This document shows, one piece after another, positions 26,672 through 34,526 of a DNA stretch of 64,000 bases. The notes beneath the pieces are model-generated. The model had not been told where the DNA came from. It searched no databases and was given only the letters and a program-made list of their open reading frames with translations. The position numbers were made by a program, and so were the translations under genes. The first letter of the stretch is position 1, and each line of letters opens with the position of its first letter. The DNA is taken from contig JAFUZJ010000019.1 of the NCBI GenBank assembly GCA_017476665.1, positions 62,001 through 126,000 of the forward strand, given 5' to 3'. The stretch comes from Lachnospiraceae bacterium (GTDB lineage: Bacteria; Bacillota; Clostridia; Lachnospirales; Lachnospiraceae).

Positions 26672-28732
26672 TTACACAATCCTCTTAAACTTTTTATCTA
26701 ATTCATACTGACTCATGGTGATGATCGTCGGTCTGCCATGAGGACAATTGTAAGGGTTGTCCAAAGTCAGCAGTTCGTCAATCAGCTCCTGCGCTTCCGC
26801 ATAGCTCAGCCTGTTATTTCCCTTCACAGCCGCCTTGCAGGACATGGATGCGATCTTCTCCTCGATCACCTGAAAGCTCCCTCTGCTCACACCCTGATCC
26901 AATTCATCCAACACTGCCAGAAAGAGCTCTCTTTCGCTGCAGCCGTAAAGATCCTGCGGTACACTTCTGAGAGCATACTCCCGCCCGCCGAAAGCTTCGA
27001 TCTCAAATCCCAGATTTCTAAAATGTTCCTGATATTCCAGATAGACCAGCTCCTCCTGTGCAGTCAGGCTCACAATAATCGGCGGCATCAGCATCTGGGA
27101 TGTCACCTGTTTTTCATGAAAGCGCTTCATCAGTCGCTCATATTTTACTTTCTCGTGGGCTGCATGCTGGTCAATAATAAACATTTTCTTCTCAAACTGT
27201 ACGATCCAATAAGTGTCAAATACCTGACCCACAATATGATAGCGGTCTCGGTTGCGCTGATCCAGAATCCGTTCTTCAAATAAATTCATCTGTTCCGGCT
27301 GAATCGCTTCTGGCTGGACTGTTGCCGGCTGGACTGTTTCTGCCCCGACTGCTTCTGCCTGCTTGGGGCCCGGCGCACCGACATTCTGCGCGCTCTGCAG
27401 CTTCTGTGGTGTCACGTTGTCGTCCTGCGGTGCCGGCGTCTCCACAAAGAATGTGTCTTCCAATTGCGCCGTTTTTTCATCAATCTGTTCCGCTCCCGAC
27501 TGCACCTTTTCGCGCTGTAATGCTTCCTGCGTCGGTTGGGGTGCCTTGACCTTGCTCCACACCGGATCCTTTGCAAAATTCTTTTTATCGACCTGATAAT
27601 GGCTCTCCTCCGCCACGCGATATGCACTGCTCCGATTGACCTCAAAAGGCTCCGGCACATGCTCTCTCTGCCGTTTTAAGAGTTCTTCCCGCTCTGCCTT
27701 CTTCACCGCCCGCTCGTCATCCAGCCTGGTATCCGGTATCATCTCCTGCTGCTTCAGCGTATCGTGCACACTGTCAGAAAGCATCTTGCTGAATGTGATC
27801 CCGTCGCTGAACCGCACGTCCATCTTATTCGGATGCACGTTCACATCCACCTGTCTGGTATCCATGGTAATATGCAGGATGCACAGCGGGAACTTATGCT
27901 GCATTAAATATTCCCGATATCCCTCCTCCAACGCTCTGGCCACCAGATTGCTGCGGATAAACCGTCCGTTGATAAAATAGATTTCAAAATTCCGATTAGA
28001 ACGTACCAATACAGGCTTCCCCAGGTATCCTTCCACCTTATTGCCGTTTTGCTCCACCTGGATCGGCACCAGTGAAGTCGCCACCTCTTTTCCATAAATC
28101 CGATAGATGACATCTTTCAGATCTCCGCTTCCCGTAGTATGAAATTTCAGCTGATTTCCCACCTGAAATTTAAATGAAATATCCGGTCTGGAAAGCGCCA
28201 GATGCTCCATCAAATCTGCAATGTAGCCGCCCTCTGTGGCAGGCATTTTTAAAAATTTTCTGCGCACCGGCGTATTAAAGAACAGATTTCTCACCAAAAA
28301 TGTGGTTCCGTCCGGCGCACCTACCTCCGAAAATTCTTTCTCCACAGCTCCCTCCAGCACCATACGGCTGCCTGTCAGGGAATCCCTGGTCTTGGTGATC
28401 ACCTCCACCTTGGCTACCGCTGCAATGCTGGACAACGCCTCACCGCGGAACCCCAGGCTGGAGATCCGGATCAGATCCTCCGCATTCTGGATTTTGCTGG
28501 TCGCATGCCGTAAAAAAGCCATACGCAGCTGCTCCTTTTCCATACCAAGTCCATTGTCCGTGACACGGATAAATTCAATTCCGCCCTCTTTGATTTCCAC
28601 CGTGATGGCAGTTGCTCCCGCGTCCACCGCATTCTCTACCAGTTCCTTCACCACACTGGATGGCCGTTCCACCACCTCGCCTGCAGCGATCTTATCAATG
28701 GTCGCCGAGTCCAAAACATGTATCTGCGGCAT
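26672..28732 (-). CDS. mutL: DNA mismatch repair protein MutL
   Basis: 686 residues from the ATG at 28732, because GGAGGAG lies directly upstream and the GTG five codons earlier would precede that site. The N-terminal GHKL ATPase (about 1-330) shows LVENAVDAGA, DNGLGM, RHATSKI and GFRGEAL. A low-complexity linker (about 335-490) contains repeated Val-Gln-Pro/Ile-Gln-Pro units. The C-terminal endonuclease domain has DQHAAHEK near 521, SCKAAVKG and CPHGRP, so it is a nicking MutL as expected where mutH is absent. It lies one base-scale gap from miaA but is separated from mutS by three unrelated genes. Confidence 0.97.
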   Translation of the reverse strand: MPQIHVLDSATIDKIAAGEVVERPSSVVKELVENAVDAGATAITVEIKEGGIEFIRVTDNGLGMEKEQLRMAFLRHATSKIQNAEDLIRISSLGFRGEALSSIAAVAKVEVITKTRDSLTGSRMVLEGAVEKEFSEVGAPDGTTFLVRNLFFNTPVRRKFLKMPATEGGYIADLMEHLALSRPDISFKFQVGNQLKFHTTGSGDLKDVIYRIYGKEVATSLVPIQVEQNGNKVEGYLGKPVLVRSNRNFEIYFINGRFIRSNLVARALEEGYREYLMQHKFPLCILHITMDTRQVDVNVHPNKMDVRFSDGITFSKMLSDSVHDTLKQQEMIPDTRLDDERAVKKAEREELLKRQREHVPEPFEVNRSSAYRVAEESHYQVDKKNFAKDPVWSKVKAPQPTQEALQREKVQSGAEQIDEKTAQLEDTFFVETPAPQDDNVTPQKLQSAQNVGAPGPKQAEAVGAETVQPATVQPEAIQPEQMNLFEERILDQRNRDRYHIVGQVFDTYWIVQFEKKMFIIDQHAAHEKVKYERLMKRFHEKQVTSQMLMPPIIVSLTAQEELVYLEYQEHFRNLGFEIEAFGGREYALRSVPQDLYGCSERELFLAVLDELDQGVSRGSFQVIEEKIASMSCKAAVKGNNRLSYAEAQELIDELLTLDNPYNCPHGRPTIITMSQYELDKKFKRIV

Positions 28733-28748
28733 TTGTCTCTCCTCCACT

Positions 28749-29750
28749 CTATCCTTCTGTCACACGGTCCGGCTCAGACGGTTGATCCGCTGTGACACAC
28801 GCCAGACCGCGTATAAATTTTCGCACCTGTTTCCACGCCTGTTCCGCCTCCGGATATCTGGTCAGTCCCATCTGGAACACATGAAACATGCCGGGAAAAA
28901 TCTGTTCCTTCACATGCACTCCGCAGATCTTCGCCTTTCTGGCCACTTCTAATGTGTCGCTCAACAACATTTCCCGCTCTCCCACCTGCATCAACATGGG
29001 CGGGAATCCGGTGTAATCACCGAAAAGCGGCGATATGTACGGCTCTCTCGCATCATGTTCACCCGGATAAGCATTGTGATAGACCAGGGTATCCGTAGAA
29101 CCGCCGAACATGGGATCTGTATTAAAATTCTTCGTATAAGAATCTCCGCTCAGCGTCAGATCCGTCCATGCCGACATGGTGATCACCGCCGCCGGCAAGG
29201 GCATCTTTTCATCCCGCAGATAAAGAGTCAGCGCCAATGCCAGACCGCCGCCTGCGGAATCCCCTGCAACAATGATCTCATCCCCTGCATATCCCTGTGC
29301 CAGCAGATACCGGTAAGCTTCAACCGCATCTTCAAACGCTGCCGGATAAGGATGTTCCGGCGCCACCCTGTAATCCAGGCTGGCTACAGCCCCGCCGGAA
29401 ATCTTCTGATAAAGTGCCGCCATATTCCGGTATGTATTATGCAGTTTCCCGTAATAACCGCCGCCATGAAGCTGTAATACCACTAATTTTTTGCATTCTC
29501 CGCTCTCCGGCGCCAGCCATTCCATCATGCAGTTTGAAAGTTCTATCACCTCATGCTTCAATCCTTCCGGTACATTCCAGTGATGCTCCATTGCGGTAAA
29601 TCTTCTCCGCAATTCTCCGGTCTGCGCCATGGGACCGATCCCCGGCATATGATTCAACATTTCTACCGCTTTCAGCGCCCGCATTCCGCCGGGGCTCACA
29701 GTGACTTCTTTTTCCCTGTTATTCTCTTTCCGCTCATCTTTTTCAAGCAT
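28749..29750 (-). CDS. Alpha/beta hydrolase, hormone-sensitive-lipase type esterase
   Basis: 333 residues. Oxyanion-hole motif HGGG is at 95-98, nucleophile elbow GDSAGG with Ser165 at 163-168, and the catalytic His is near 290 in GMFHVFQ; the acid is probably an Asp near 265. These define the HSL/bacterial family IV esterases, which cut short-chain esters or act on N-acylated or acetylated substrates. No signal peptide is seen, so it is cytoplasmic. It is the third gene of a cassette with a condensation-type acyltransferase and DUF6320 protein and may remove or proofread the ester made by that enzyme; this is inference. Confidence 0.9.
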   Translation of the reverse strand: MLEKDERKENNREKEVTVSPGGMRALKAVEMLNHMPGIGPMAQTGELRRRFTAMEHHWNVPEGLKHEVIELSNCMMEWLAPESGECKKLVVLQLHGGGYYGKLHNTYRNMAALYQKISGGAVASLDYRVAPEHPYPAAFEDAVEAYRYLLAQGYAGDEIIVAGDSAGGGLALALTLYLRDEKMPLPAAVITMSAWTDLTLSGDSYTKNFNTDPMFGGSTDTLVYHNAYPGEHDAREPYISPLFGDYTGFPPMLMQVGEREMLLSDTLEVARKAKICGVHVKEQIFPGMFHVFQMGLTRYPEAEQAWKQVRKFIRGLACVTADQPSEPDRVTEG

Positions 29751-29776
29751 TTTCTATATCTCCGTTTTACGATCCA

Positions 29777-30472
29777 TCACACATGAAACCGCCGCTTCAA
29801 CTCCCGCTTAAACTGACGGTCGCCAAACAGGATCGTCGCTGCCAGATACACCCCTGACACCAGGATACAAAGCACCGGCAGGATCAGATTGTGAATATGA
29901 TGGGTCAGATACAACAATATGATCACCACACTGCTGGCCGCCATCATCAGTAAAAGCGCCAGATAGCTATACCAGTTCTGTCTGTTCAGCATCATAAAGA
30001 AAAACACCATGCCGTCTCCCAACAGGATCAGCCCCGGGATTGCCCATTCCACGGCCCACCCGCGGTTTCCCGTCATATGATCGATCAAAAACAGCAGCGC
30101 CATCGTGGAAAATATCTGCAATCCCACTTTAAAGGCCGCCCCTGCATCATGCCTGATCCAATAGACAACAAACAAATAGGTGTACAACAATGCGATGCCC
30201 ACGATCACAGACCAGTATAACATAGGGGTAAATATTACATTAATGACTATAGCAGCTGCCTCACACAAAAGAAAACAAAACAGCATCAGGCTCATAAAAA
30301 AGCGGATCTGCCGCTCCCTGTTGCGGACATTCGGATACTGCGCCGCCAGACCATACTGAGACGCAATCTCCTTTGCACGCTGTGCATCCGCCTCCTCCAT
30401 CATTTTATGACAGAGCGGACAGCTGTTCCTCTCATCCAAAACCATCACCTTACAATTACTGCAATAATTCAT
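29777..30472 (-). CDS. DUF6320 zinc-ribbon membrane protein
   Basis: 231 residues. A zinc ribbon at the N-terminus is formed by Cys4, Cys7, Cys18 and Cys21 (CSNC ... CPLC). After a charged stretch come six hydrophobic helices (about 57-78, 85-104, 113-131, 140-158, 163-182 and 190-210), and the C-terminus is basic (RQFKRELKRRFHV). I recognise this as the DUF6320 type, function unknown. It starts three bases after the acyltransferase gene, so the two are tightly coupled. A scaffold or lipid-substrate role for the adjacent acyltransferase is possible. Confidence 0.82.
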   Translation of the reverse strand: MNYCSNCKVMVLDERNSCPLCHKMMEEADAQRAKEIASQYGLAAQYPNVRNRERQIRFFMSLMLFCFLLCEAAAIVINVIFTPMLYWSVIVGIALLYTYLFVVYWIRHDAGAAFKVGLQIFSTMALLFLIDHMTGNRGWAVEWAIPGLILLGDGMVFFFMMLNRQNWYSYLALLLMMAASSVVIILLYLTHHIHNLILPVLCILVSGVYLAATILFGDRQFKRELKRRFHV

Positions 30473-30475
30473 AAT

Positions 30476-31792
30476 CTATGCATCCTCATATACTTCGTTT
30501 GTCTGCAGCACTACTTCCACGCCGTCCTCCGTCAATGTCTGGAAAAAGCATTTCTGCACAGAGGTATCACTCAAGATCGAACTGAAGCAGACCGTGAGTA
30601 TTCCATTATAGGAGCACACGCTCCCCTTCATATTCTGTCCCGCAGACATGGATAGCAGACAGGCAAAATTCTCTACAAACGGTTTATACGGCTCCCGCAG
30701 TTCGATATTGCCAATATTTGTGATTGTGGTGGTACTATTGTGCCTGGATGCTTCATACACCTGCTTGATCGCAATATTTTTGATGGCCAGCGGGATCAGA
30801 CGAAGAATAAAGTTCTGTTCGTTCGACACATTGTATGTGATGATGTCGTCCAGATTTTCCTTTGTGATCTGCTCCTTCAGGCTCTGCGTGGTAATCTCCA
30901 GCACTTCGGCAAAACTGTATTTTTCTATCCGCTCCTGCGGCTGAAACTCCGCCGTCACCATGGCAAAAAAATTCTTCATGGTATGGGAATCATAGAACGG
31001 CCGAAGGTTCACGGGCACGCAGCATGCAATGGGCACATCACTGCCTCTGCTGTGCAGATATCCCTTGTAGATCGCATAAGTGTAGGCTCCCACCAGATAT
31101 TGATTGATGGTCACGCCGTATTTTTTGCAGGCCGCCTTCAGCAGATCAATCCGCATGGAGCCCTGGATCACGCCCACCGCGCCGCCCATCAGCTTCTCCC
31201 CGTGCAGCGTAACCGCATGAGAAGACTTATATTTCTTGCGTTCCTTTACCGGCTTTTTATAATTCTTCAGGTAACTGTCCTCTTTGTCAAAATAGACATC
31301 CGGCGAAATTCTGTCCTTCTCGCCGGCAAGCGCCTCCGGGTACTTGAGGCGAAGATATTGGTACACCAGTTCTTTCAGAAAAACAATTCCGCCGAAACCG
31401 TCCGTCAGCACATGAAATACTTCCAGATTGATGCGACGTCCGTAATAAGTGACCCGAAACATATAATTATGATTCTGGCTCTTGTTGATATAGGCACCCG
31501 GGTAGGCATATTCCTGCCGCACCTGGGGCGTTGTCTTTTTGTTTTCCTCAAAATAATACCAGAAAAGCCCTGCCCGCAGACACATCCGGAACACCGAAAA
31601 ATGCGGCAGCACACGGTTTAGTGCCTCCTGCAGCAGCACGCGGTCTACCTCCTCCGTCATCACCGCGAAGATCCGATATACATTTGTCATGTTTTCACTG
31701 GCGATCACCGGAAATAAAAGCGCCGTATTATCCAGTTTGTCCCATGCCGTATTGATATCCTTACTCAAAAAACTCACTCCATTTATGATCAT
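30476..31792 (-). CDS. Condensation-domain (PapA5/alcohol acetyltransferase-like) acyltransferase
   Basis: 438 residues from ATG 31792. That ATG shares one base with the mutS stop (TGATG), giving strong translational coupling; a TTG eight codons later with GGAG upstream is an alternative. The catalytic HxxxDG motif is HVLTDG at 127-132. The two-lobed condensation/CoA-dependent acyltransferase fold is supported by the later CVPVNLRPF segment (DFGWG-region equivalent) and NIGNIELRE. The family moves acyl groups to alcohols or amines. No NRPS or PKS genes are nearby, so a stand-alone lipid or small-molecule acylation is likelier. The product is unknown. Confidence 0.83.
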   Translation of the reverse strand: MIINGVSFLSKDINTAWDKLDNTALLFPVIASENMTNVYRIFAVMTEEVDRVLLQEALNRVLPHFSVFRMCLRAGLFWYYFEENKKTTPQVRQEYAYPGAYINKSQNHNYMFRVTYYGRRINLEVFHVLTDGFGGIVFLKELVYQYLRLKYPEALAGEKDRISPDVYFDKEDSYLKNYKKPVKERKKYKSSHAVTLHGEKLMGGAVGVIQGSMRIDLLKAACKKYGVTINQYLVGAYTYAIYKGYLHSRGSDVPIACCVPVNLRPFYDSHTMKNFFAMVTAEFQPQERIEKYSFAEVLEITTQSLKEQITKENLDDIITYNVSNEQNFILRLIPLAIKNIAIKQVYEASRHNSTTTITNIGNIELREPYKPFVENFACLLSMSAGQNMKGSVCSYNGILTVCFSSILSDTSVQKCFFQTLTEDGVEVVLQTNEVYEDA

Positions 31793-34458
31793 CACTCCGC
31801 CGTCCAACGGTTTCGCAGCTTATTCTGCAGCCTGTACAGTGTATTCATGGCATCCAACGGCGTCAATGTGGTGATCTCCACCTCCATCAGTTCTCTGATC
31901 ACATCCTCGTCCGTCACCGTCTCGAACAGGGACATCTGCGCCATGTCCAACTCATCCATCTTCGGCAGCTTCTGTCCGCTTCGCTTATTCTCTCCCTTGG
32001 TGTCTACCGCAATACTCTGTACTTTCTCGGTGATATCATTGTCCGAGAGTTGATCCGCAATCTCCTTTGCCCGGTCGATCACCATATCCGGCACGCCCGC
32101 CAACTTTGCCACCTGAATTCCGTAACTCCGGTCCGCACCGCCCTTTACAATCTTTCGCAGGAATACAATATCATCCCCACATTCCTTCACGGCAATACAA
32201 TAATTGTTCACATTGCTCATCTTGCCTTCCAGCTCCGTCAGCTCATGATAATGGGTGGCAAACAAAGTTTTTGCCCCCAAAAGCTTTCTGTTGCTGATAT
32301 GTTCGATCACTGCCCATGCGATGGAAAGTCCGTCAAAGGTGGAGGTGCCGCGGCCGATCTCGTCCAGGATCAGCAGACTGTTCGCCGTGGCGTTCCGCAG
32401 AATATTGGCCACCTCATTCATCTCCACCATAAAGGTGGATTGTCCGCTGGCCAGGTCATCCGATGCGCCCACACGGGTAAAAATCCGATCCACGATCCCG
32501 ATATTCGCGGACTTTGCCGGCACAAAACACCCGATCTGCGCCAGGAGCACGATCAGCGCCGACTGCCGCATATACGTGGATTTTCCAGCCATGTTCGGTC
32601 CCGTGATGACGCTGATACAATGGCTGCCGTTGTCCAGATAAGTGTCATTGGCAATAAACAGATCATTGGTGATCATCTGCTCCACCACAGGATGCCGCCC
32701 CTCTTTAATGTCAATTACGCCTTTTTCATTTAACTTCGGGCGCACATAATGATTCCGCTCCGCCACCACAGAAAGAGACGCGAACACATCCAGCCTCGCT
32801 ACCGCTTTCGCCGTTTTCTGGATTCGCTCCAGCTCCGCAGCCACCGCGTCACGGATCTTGCAGAACAGGTCATATTCCAACGTCTGCAGCTTCTCCTCCG
32901 CGTTCAGGATCGTATCCTCCAGTTCCTTCAGCCGGGGCGTGGTATAACGCTCCGCGTTTGCCAGCGTCTGCTTTCGCACATAATCCTCCGGCACCAGATT
33001 TTTATAAGAATTCGTCACTTCAAAATAATACCCGAACACTTTATTATACTTAATGCGCAGGTTCTTGATCCCCGTGCGCTCTCTGTCTTTCTCCTCCAGC
33101 TCCGCCAGCCAGGACTTCCCATCCCGCTTGGCACTGCGCAGCATATCAATATCCTCATCAAATCCATCCTTGATGATCCCGCCTTCACGGATCGTGATCG
33201 GCGGTTCCTCCTCGATGGACTGCAGGATCAACTGATAGATATCCTCCAGGCCATCCATCGCCTCCCGGATCGAAGTCAGCGCTTCCCTGTGGAAATTTTC
33301 CAGCACCGTCTTAATATGCGGCAGCATCTCCAGCGAATTGCGAAACGCAATCAGGTCCCTGGGATTGGCAGTCTTATAGGTCACTTTCGCCAAAAGCCGC
33401 TCCAGATCATAGATTGGATTCAGATACTCCCTGATCTCGTCCCGGGAAAAACTGTCCCCGTTCAGCTCCTCAATGGCATCCAGTCTGCTCTCCATATCCG
33501 CCTTCTCGATCAGAGGCTGTTCAATATAACTTCTAAGCAGACGCCCGCCCATGGCGGTCCTGGTCTTGTCCAACACCCACAGCAGAGAACCTCTTTTTTG
33601 TTTCTCCCGCAAAGTCTCCGTCAGCTCCAGGTTTCTTCTGGTAGAGCTGTCCAACAGCATATATTTACTGGTCAGATAGGGGTACAAATGCGTGAAATGC
33701 TCCAACTCACTCTTCTGCGTCTCCTGCAGATACTGCAACATCGCCCCGGCAGCGATCATCCCGTTGGGAAAATCCTCAATCCCCAGCCCGATCAGGGTAT
33801 TCACTTTAAAATGTTTTAACAGAGTCTTTTTGCAGCCGTCATCGTCAAACACATGCGCTTCCAAGGCATTCACCGAAATATGTAATCTGCCCCGCAGATC
33901 CTCCACATCCGCGCCGCTCATCAGGAACGCATCGTTGCAGATGATCTCGGATGGCTCATATTTCATCAGCTCGTCCATGAGCTTCTTGATGTCCTCCACT
34001 TCCGTCACATAGAAATCCCCCGTGGTCACATCCGCAGCCGCAACGCCGATCCCTGTAGGCATATAGGTAATGCACAAAATAAAATTATTCTTGGAAGCGT
34101 CCAGCGACTGCACGTTCAGGTTTGTCCCCGGCGTCACGATCCGCACGATATCCCGCTTCACCAGTCCCTTCGCCAGCTTCGGATCTTCCAGCTGCTCACA
34201 GATTGCCACCTTGTACCCTTTGCTGACCAACTTGGTCAAATACCCCTCCACCGCATGATACGGCACGCCGCACATAGGTGCGCGCTCATCCTGACCGCAG
34301 GCTCTGCCGGTCAACGTCAGCTCCAGTTCCTTGGAAGCCGTCACCGCATCCTCAAAAAACATCTCATAAAAATCGCCAAGTCTGTAAAACAAAATACAGT
34401 CCGGGACCTGCTTCTTGGTCTCCATATACTGTTGCATCATGGGGGTTAATTCGGGCAC
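31792..34458 (-). CDS. mutS: DNA mismatch repair protein MutS
   Basis: 888 residues if translation starts at GTG 34458, nine bases after AGGAG and matching the usual ELTPMMQQY opening; an ATG seven codons upstream has no site. MutS recognises mismatches: the Phe-x-Glu wedge is in RLGDFYEMFFEDA near the N-terminus. The ATPase has Walker A GPNMAGKST near residue 620, DDLASGQSTFMVEM and Walker B LLILDEIGRGTSTFDG. The C-terminus carries the helix-turn-helix dimerisation region. It heads an operon that continues through the acyltransferase cassette to mutL and miaA. Confidence 0.97.
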   Translation of the reverse strand: MPELTPMMQQYMETKKQVPDCILFYRLGDFYEMFFEDAVTASKELELTLTGRACGQDERAPMCGVPYHAVEGYLTKLVSKGYKVAICEQLEDPKLAKGLVKRDIVRIVTPGTNLNVQSLDASKNNFILCITYMPTGIGVAAADVTTGDFYVTEVEDIKKLMDELMKYEPSEIICNDAFLMSGADVEDLRGRLHISVNALEAHVFDDDGCKKTLLKHFKVNTLIGLGIEDFPNGMIAAGAMLQYLQETQKSELEHFTHLYPYLTSKYMLLDSSTRRNLELTETLREKQKRGSLLWVLDKTRTAMGGRLLRSYIEQPLIEKADMESRLDAIEELNGDSFSRDEIREYLNPIYDLERLLAKVTYKTANPRDLIAFRNSLEMLPHIKTVLENFHREALTSIREAMDGLEDIYQLILQSIEEEPPITIREGGIIKDGFDEDIDMLRSAKRDGKSWLAELEEKDRERTGIKNLRIKYNKVFGYYFEVTNSYKNLVPEDYVRKQTLANAERYTTPRLKELEDTILNAEEKLQTLEYDLFCKIRDAVAAELERIQKTAKAVARLDVFASLSVVAERNHYVRPKLNEKGVIDIKEGRHPVVEQMITNDLFIANDTYLDNGSHCISVITGPNMAGKSTYMRQSALIVLLAQIGCFVPAKSANIGIVDRIFTRVGASDDLASGQSTFMVEMNEVANILRNATANSLLILDEIGRGTSTFDGLSIAWAVIEHISNRKLLGAKTLFATHYHELTELEGKMSNVNNYCIAVKECGDDIVFLRKIVKGGADRSYGIQVAKLAGVPDMVIDRAKEIADQLSDNDITEKVQSIAVDTKGENKRSGQKLPKMDELDMAQMSLFETVTDEDVIRELMEVEITTLTPLDAMNTLYRLQNKLRNRWTAE

Positions 34459-34526
34459 TGTCTTGCACTCCTGTTCCATGTTATTATAAAAAGGCTGTCT
34501 GCACAAATCCTGCGCATTCAGCCTCC

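Follow-up and report, generated by a model that had tools for sequence, protein, structure and literature searches.

Three adjacent genes on the minus strand of the window, a stretch of 64,000 nucleotides from a Lachnospiraceae bacterium (GCA_017476665.1, contig JAFUZJ010000019.1, positions 62,001 to 126,000), code for a putative condensation-fold O-acyltransferase (AT), a DUF6320 membrane protein with a zinc ribbon, and an HSL-type alpha/beta hydrolase, here called the esterase. They stand between mutS and mutL, where an earlier note made from the window alone had placed them, and their coordinates and common strand were confirmed. From the comparison of sequences we conclude that AT, DUF6320 and esterase are a conserved, self-contained unit which occurs in many gut bacteria, and that the DNA-repair neighbours are incidental. 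The same comparison shows intact motifs in AT and esterase, repeated fusion of AT with DUF6320, absence of the ribbon from the fusions and repeated choice of an esterase.

An AT is adjacent or fused to DUF6320 in all 44 loci that were chosen by DUF6320. These comprise 14 loci (L017-030), ten fusion loci (L121-130) and 20 loci with weak hits (L141-160), the latter 30 being stretches chosen from the table of DUF6320 matches in 200 genomes of the family. Among the loci chosen by the AT, DUF6320 adjoins it in 79 of 80 (L031-110), which are the best 80 of 562 confirmed candidates from GTDB genomes. The single exception, L071, has about 6.7 kb between the two genes. The intervening genes (L071:9262-14751) are mostly on the opposite strand and thiamine-synthesis-like by eye, with DUF6320 and an esterase beyond, and the separation may be an insertion or an assembly join. 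In a set of 299 genomes of the phylum, DUF6320 occurs in 14 and an AT-profile match in 21; all 14 are among the 21 and have the AT beside DUF6320. Many loci are metagenome-assembled, and samples from one family dominate.

The esterase is the third member of the unit. An HSL-type esterase lies no more than 400 bp from the unit in 106 of 129 loci, and four more loci are cut by contig ends within 1 kb. By set, the counts are 9/14 for L017-030, 66/80 for L031-110, 10/10 for the fusions, 4/5 for the genus loci L131-135 and 17/20 for L141-160. Only four esterases are found at a distance of at least 1.5 kb in the 1.23 Mb of these loci, compared with the 106 within 400 bp. As background, any PF07859 match above cut-off occurs in 20 of 61 phylum genomes. 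The esterase gene stands downstream or upstream in the orientation of the unit, or upstream and divergent. Five AT loci without DUF6320 (L136-140) have no nearby esterase; three of them are near contig ends. At one of the five (L138:5685-7632) the distant AT is followed after 1 bp by the gene of a YccF-domain membrane protein, perhaps a different membrane partner.

The active site of the AT, whose degeneration in most relatives the earlier note had named as a refuting result, is intact: HxxxDG is found by pattern search in each of the 134 AT open frames of more than 390 aa, and the HVLTDG of the window is present as noted earlier. Residues H127, D131, G132 and G134 are invariant in alignments A1 (14 rows) and A4 (27 rows). 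When profile A4 is compared by hhalign with 13 Bacillota condensation domains (out of 20 loci, kept if an open frame and the motif were present), the match reaches 96% with E 4.5e-9 and HxxxDG in register, while the esterase profile as control reaches 0.1%. The window AT stays under the curated cut-offs of PapA_C (PF16911, 23.5 bits versus 30) and of the NCBIfam WS/DGAT model TIGR02946 (25.6 bits versus 309.95) and has no match to AATase (PF07247) at E 0.05; its profile aligns with 6chj at E 0.016. At E 0.01 or better, the 27 members of A4 show weak matches to PapA_C (15), AATase (8), WS_DGAT_C (2), Condensation (2), Transferase (1) and CCB1 (1). Because the profile comparison places the AT in the condensation superfamily while the Pfam matches of its members scatter, it is best seen as a family of its own inside this superfamily. 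No hydrophobic segment is detected in the AT by hydropathy. PF07247 and PF06974 were each found in 0 of 149 Bacillota genomes; 14 controls also gave none, so that absence is not established by this count. The window's own genome holds a weak second AT-like stretch within a 538-aa frame (G000:C1:20043-20381).

The middle gene had been described as a zinc-ribbon, six-helix DUF6320 protein, and this description holds. The window protein matches PF19845 with 172 bits (E 1.6e-50, cut-off 29.9) over profile positions 1-186, which is full-length. The match covers residues 46-231 and begins after the zinc ribbon, and hydropathy gives six hydrophobic segments. The ribbon cysteines C4, C7, C18 and C21, which form the CxxC...CPLC pattern, are invariant across the 65 rows of DUF6320 alignment A5. 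Besides them, the most conserved residues in these rows are P47 (100%), P146 (98%), W87 (95%) and R228 (92%). The mean number of Lys/Arg per loop is 1.3 for each inside loop, 0.5-0.6 for each outside loop and 5.1 for the C-terminus. By the positive-inside rule, these counts place the ribbon and the C-terminus in the cytosol, as far as we can infer. The loop between helices 3 and 4 would by this topology be outside; it contains D131 (65%), G135 (77%), G138 (63%) and W139 (88%).

Fusions of AT and DUF6320 point to a role of the ribbon. PF19845 is found in 109 of the 200 family-sample genomes at E 0.001, in 107 of them above cut-off, and 25 of the above-cut-off rows sit in frames of 603-669 aa. 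Ten of these long frames were opened, and all ten are an AT followed by DUF6320 in one protein, each with an adjoining esterase. Fusions fall into two distinct clades of the AT tree, one of five rows (100/100) and one of two rows (100/99); uniting the seven fused rows in a single clade is rejected with p-AU 2.7e-53 (52 rows, the long rows L139 and L140 dropped). All 117 separate DUF6320 proteins of 201-299 aa carry the zinc ribbon. The ten fusions lack it and show no CxxC in residues 401-470, its expected location. DUF6320 of L026 is split into two frames and falls outside this length range. Because all separate proteins of this length have the ribbon and the fusions have none, the most economical explanation is a ribbon that holds the AT to DUF6320 and is lost once a covalent link replaces it. 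A single fusion followed by splits is possible in principle; it would require the ribbon to be regained with the same four cysteines, and we judge it less likely.

The window esterase matches PF07859 (Abhydrolase_3) with 168 bits (3.2e-49, cut-off 25), contains HGGG and GDSAGG as stated before, and has Est8 (6y9k) as closest solved relative. HGGG is found in 106 of 106 and GDSAG in 105 of 106 esterase frames examined, and the catalytic Ser, Asp and His columns are invariant in 11 rows. The window esterase shows no hydrophobic segment by hydropathy; one of 102 esterases has such a segment near its N-terminus. Its match to GESAG_HSLs (NF058651) is 222.3 bits, under the curated cut-off of 430. 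Six other linked esterases were scanned: four have GESAG_HSLs as best match, as in the window, two (L017, L121) have LipP1, and none of the six is above the curated cut-off of either model. A tree of 54 esterases scatters the linked members, with unlinked ones in between, and one clade of all linked esterases is rejected with p-AU 1.5e-7 (50 rows, 42 linked and 8 unlinked, four long unlinked rows dropped beforehand; L029 and L134, with the esterase 5-6 kb off, entered as linked).

The type of esterase seems to have been exchanged at the same place. Four ATs with a GESAG-type esterase upstream (those of L141, L142, L144 and L147) group as sisters of ATs with an upstream LipP1-type esterase (joint node 100/99), which suggests that one type took the place of the other. 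The AT of L025 branches among the LipP1-linked ATs; no HSL esterase is near it, and the DUF6320 stop is overlapped by a gene that matches pectinacetylesterase PF03283 (2.6e-7). Because HSL types swap and a pectinacetylesterase-family gene can take their place, we read this as selection for some esterase activity beside AT-DUF6320. The setting of L025 (L025:4309-11564) is carbohydrate-degrading, with a GH120-type protein gene upstream, AT, DUF6320, the pectinacetylesterase-family gene and an alpha-L-fucosidase gene in one run.

Further out, flanking families recur in at most 12 of 79 AT loci and at most nine loci in another set, and for same-strand genes no more than 60 bp away the maximum is six. 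The recurrent ones resemble general housekeeping or signalling genes; a pair that we take from the translations to be dgt and dnaG recurs as local context in eight to nine loci of the latter set. Genome G255 carries two units (L018, L030); no esterase is near the second, which is followed after 50 bp by an undecaprenyl-diphosphate-synthase-family gene. In Anaerotruncus colihominis VE303-02 a 52-kb plasmid bears the unit (L191, NZ_CP094683.1 22143-35399) in the order esterase-AT-DUF6320, and 22 bp behind the unit follows a DAGK/YegS-type lipid kinase gene of the diacylglycerol-kinase family.

We favour, with somewhat better than even confidence, a membrane-anchored condensation-fold O-acyltransferase complex with an opposing esterase. 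The AT would be cytosolic, and the His of HxxxDG would move an acyl group, probably short and probably from acyl-CoA as donor, to a hydroxyl group. DUF6320 would be its membrane subunit, onto whose cytosolic zinc ribbon the AT docks. The helices of DUF6320 would position the AT at the membrane and hold the acceptor or product there or hand it on, perhaps via the partly conserved, outward-facing D-x3-G-x2-GW loop. The cytosolic esterase would take the acyl group off again, so that the ester is edited or recycled. Ribbon docking, topology and the opposition of the two reactions are inferences. A more specific version, in which the AT acylates hydrophobic alcohols at the inner membrane face, the outer loop of DUF6320 hands the product outward and the cytosolic esterase deacylates what should stay ('tag, export, or take back'), is rather speculative, and we think it improbable as it stands. 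Acylation of lipoteichoic-acid glycolipids and the butyroyl lipids of Butyrivibrio were considered as leads to the acceptor; we saw nothing that ties either of them to these genes.

Several observations weigh against the complex with an opposing esterase. Seven of the 299 phylum genomes have an AT-profile match and no DUF6320, some of these matches being weak or partial. No nearby esterase is found in nine of the 80 AT-chosen loci that have room for one, nor in L025 (HSL type), L028, L030, L151, L153 and L157. The esterase is 5-7 kb from the AT in L029, L071 and L134 and 2.4 kb in L023. Of six printed DUF6320 relatives, four show six hydrophobic segments; at this threshold the other two show five. 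Around the unit there is no fourth gene frequent enough to identify a substrate. Finally, the unfused DUF6320 of L028 (194 aa) is without ribbon. The AT beside this ribbonless protein (L028:3891-6171) is extended at its N-terminus by a charged stretch of well over 100 aa, which may offer another docking route.

The same two enzymes could instead remodel a lipid or glycan, with the esterase deacylating it and the AT re-esterifying the freed hydroxyl with another chain, as in phospholipid deacylation-reacylation. Neither enzyme shows a membrane segment and both are together in most loci, which is compatible with remodelling, as is the diacylglycerol-kinase-family gene on the A. colihominis plasmid. 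A relative of this kinase is found at only one other scanned locus (L086), however, the esterase families found here are typically short-chain esterases, and L025 has a pectinacetylesterase-family gene in the esterase place; we regard remodelling as unlikely. Detoxification, in which the AT acylates foreign alcohols such as plant phenolics, steroids or antibiotics and the esterase reverses the acylation of self compounds, appears to us distinctly improbable. Chloramphenicol acetyltransferase and yeast Atf2 have folds of the kind of the AT, and the window esterase matches Say1_Mug180 at 9e-15, but this match is far weaker than that to Abhydrolase_3, and HSL esterases commonly match Say1_Mug180. 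A pairing of this sort is proposed for yeast Atf2 and Say1 (PMC4076087). The presence of PF19845 in more than half of the family genomes is above our expectation for a niche detoxifier. Synthesis of storage lipids or wax esters by a WS/DGAT-like enzyme with its own lipase could explain the weak alignments of the AT with TIGR02946 and 6chj; the TIGR02946 score is far under its cut-off and the recurrent neighbours show no lipid-storage pathway by eye, which leaves this explanation very little credit.

Coupling to mutS, which the earlier note had presented as a feature of the cassette, did not survive comparison, and we reject it as a functional signal. That the genes serve DNA repair or ride as mutS passengers could be argued from their tight spacing between mutS and mutL in the window and from the identical gene order of the sister genome G353. 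This is already contradicted and has practically no probability left: MutS or MutL, sought with the window's own proteins, is found in the fetched DNA of 0 of 79 AT loci (some loci are short, and L097, with no AT frame, was left out of the scan), and mutL directly follows mutS in nine of ten genus relatives opened at mutS, with 9-106 bp between the called frames. The co-occurrence of the three families apart from mutS and mutL, which the earlier note had proposed to count, is borne out. The tenth relative, G342 (L193, G342:C43:100000-107000), has genes for a solute-binding-type protein and a GNAT acetyltransferase in this place; the mutS-mutL junction thus took up other genes in another member of the genus. 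An AT match occurs in 48 of the 61 genomes of the genus, and five loci were opened for the AT (L131-135). Of all these matches, only that of G353 is of the window's kind (87% identical), while the other full-length ones are 29-32% identical. The unit is seen between mutS and mutL only in the window's genome, which has one DUF6320 match only, and in G353. Because nine of ten relatives have the plain junction and the other full-length ATs of the genus are of another kind, it looks as if a different copy of the unit was inserted into the mutS-mutL operon in the lineage of the window.

In the window, mutS, AT, DUF6320, esterase and mutL form one tight run on the same strand (Table 1). The gaps of 3 bases between AT and DUF6320 and of 26 bases between DUF6320 and esterase are as reported earlier. 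The overlap of the AT start with the mutS stop stands only in part. The letters TGATG are indeed present at the junction; the AT probably starts at a TTG at 31768, 23 bases past the mutS stop. In G353, whose MutS is 94% identical, the AT can start at a TTG with GGAG 8 bases upstream, and its called AT frame has no overlap with mutS. Because the window shares this TTG and GGAG, the TGATG overlap is probably not the AT start. Between the mutS end and mutL the minus strand shows no terminator-like site. A promoter-like match just before the AT (31866-31838) scores 9/12; such matches arise often by chance here, with 17 in the region versus 9.1 expected. On its upstream side mutS is adjoined by a YhgA-like gene (PF04754, 34603-35568, minus strand, 23.1 bits versus a cut-off of 21).

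Table 1. Features of the mutS-mutL region of the window.
Feature	Position	Strand	Remarks
mutS	31792-34506	minus	upstream neighbour, context outside the unit; Pfam MutS I-V
Acyltransferase (AT), putative condensation-fold O-acyltransferase	30476..31768	minus	430 aa from probable TTG; from sequence
AT open frame including in-frame ATG	30476-31792	minus	ATG at 31792 shares a base with the mutS stop
AT active-site motif HVLTDG	31397..31414	minus	residues 127-132 numbered from the ATG
DUF6320 membrane protein	29777-30472	minus	231 aa; N-terminal zinc ribbon, six hydrophobic segments, basic C-terminus; PF19845
DUF6320 zinc ribbon CxxC...CPLC	30410..30463	minus	C4, C7, C18, C21
HSL-type alpha/beta hydrolase (esterase)	28749-29750	minus	PF07859
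mutL	26672-28747	minus	downstream neighbour, context outside the unit; Pfam MutL_C and others

For DUF6320, a family of unknown function, these results provide a firm partner, a testable role for the ribbon and two enzymes that can be assayed. The 109 genomes with DUF6320 are nearly all from different genera of Lachnospiraceae, a dominant gut family. Given this frequency, the ester handled by the unit may be a common and unrecorded part of the chemistry of these bacteria. The earlier suggestion of a small undescribed pathway is sustained insofar as the three genes form a unit; 'undescribed' applies within the open-access literature searched, where no paper names DUF6320, the combination of AT, DUF6320 and esterase, or COG4908, a name given to AT-like proteins.

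The AT resembles the condensation and CoA-dependent acyltransferase superfamily (PF00668, PapA5, WS/DGAT, alcohol acetyltransferase) in the register of HxxxDG, its length of about 430 aa and the 96% profile match; it differs in that the window AT reaches no curated cut-off and has DUF6320 adjacent or fused. We know of no DUF6320 beside or fused to members of any of these families. The Pfam family PF19845 describes the membrane part of the window protein in full and omits the zinc ribbon from its match; its tie to AT and esterase is the finding here. With the HSL-type esterases of PF07859 (GESAG_HSLs, LipP1) the esterase has HGGG, GDSAG and the catalytic columns in common, and the GESAG_HSLs and LipP1 cut-offs are not reached. 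The closest parallel as a system would be the sterol acetylation cycle of yeast. Atf2 is a condensation-type acyltransferase, and we know of no DUF6320 in yeast. In a current model, as given in PMC4076087, Atf2 acetylates sterols, which are secreted unless Say1 deacetylates them, so that an acyltransferase is likewise opposed by a deacetylase. We regard this as an analogy, not as membership, and make no claim of homology as a system: by the same paper Say1 has a transmembrane domain, whereas the esterase here shows none. If tag, export and take-back were true for the unit, it would be an independent parallel to Atf2/Say1, and about half of the sampled genera of the window's family would have kept it.

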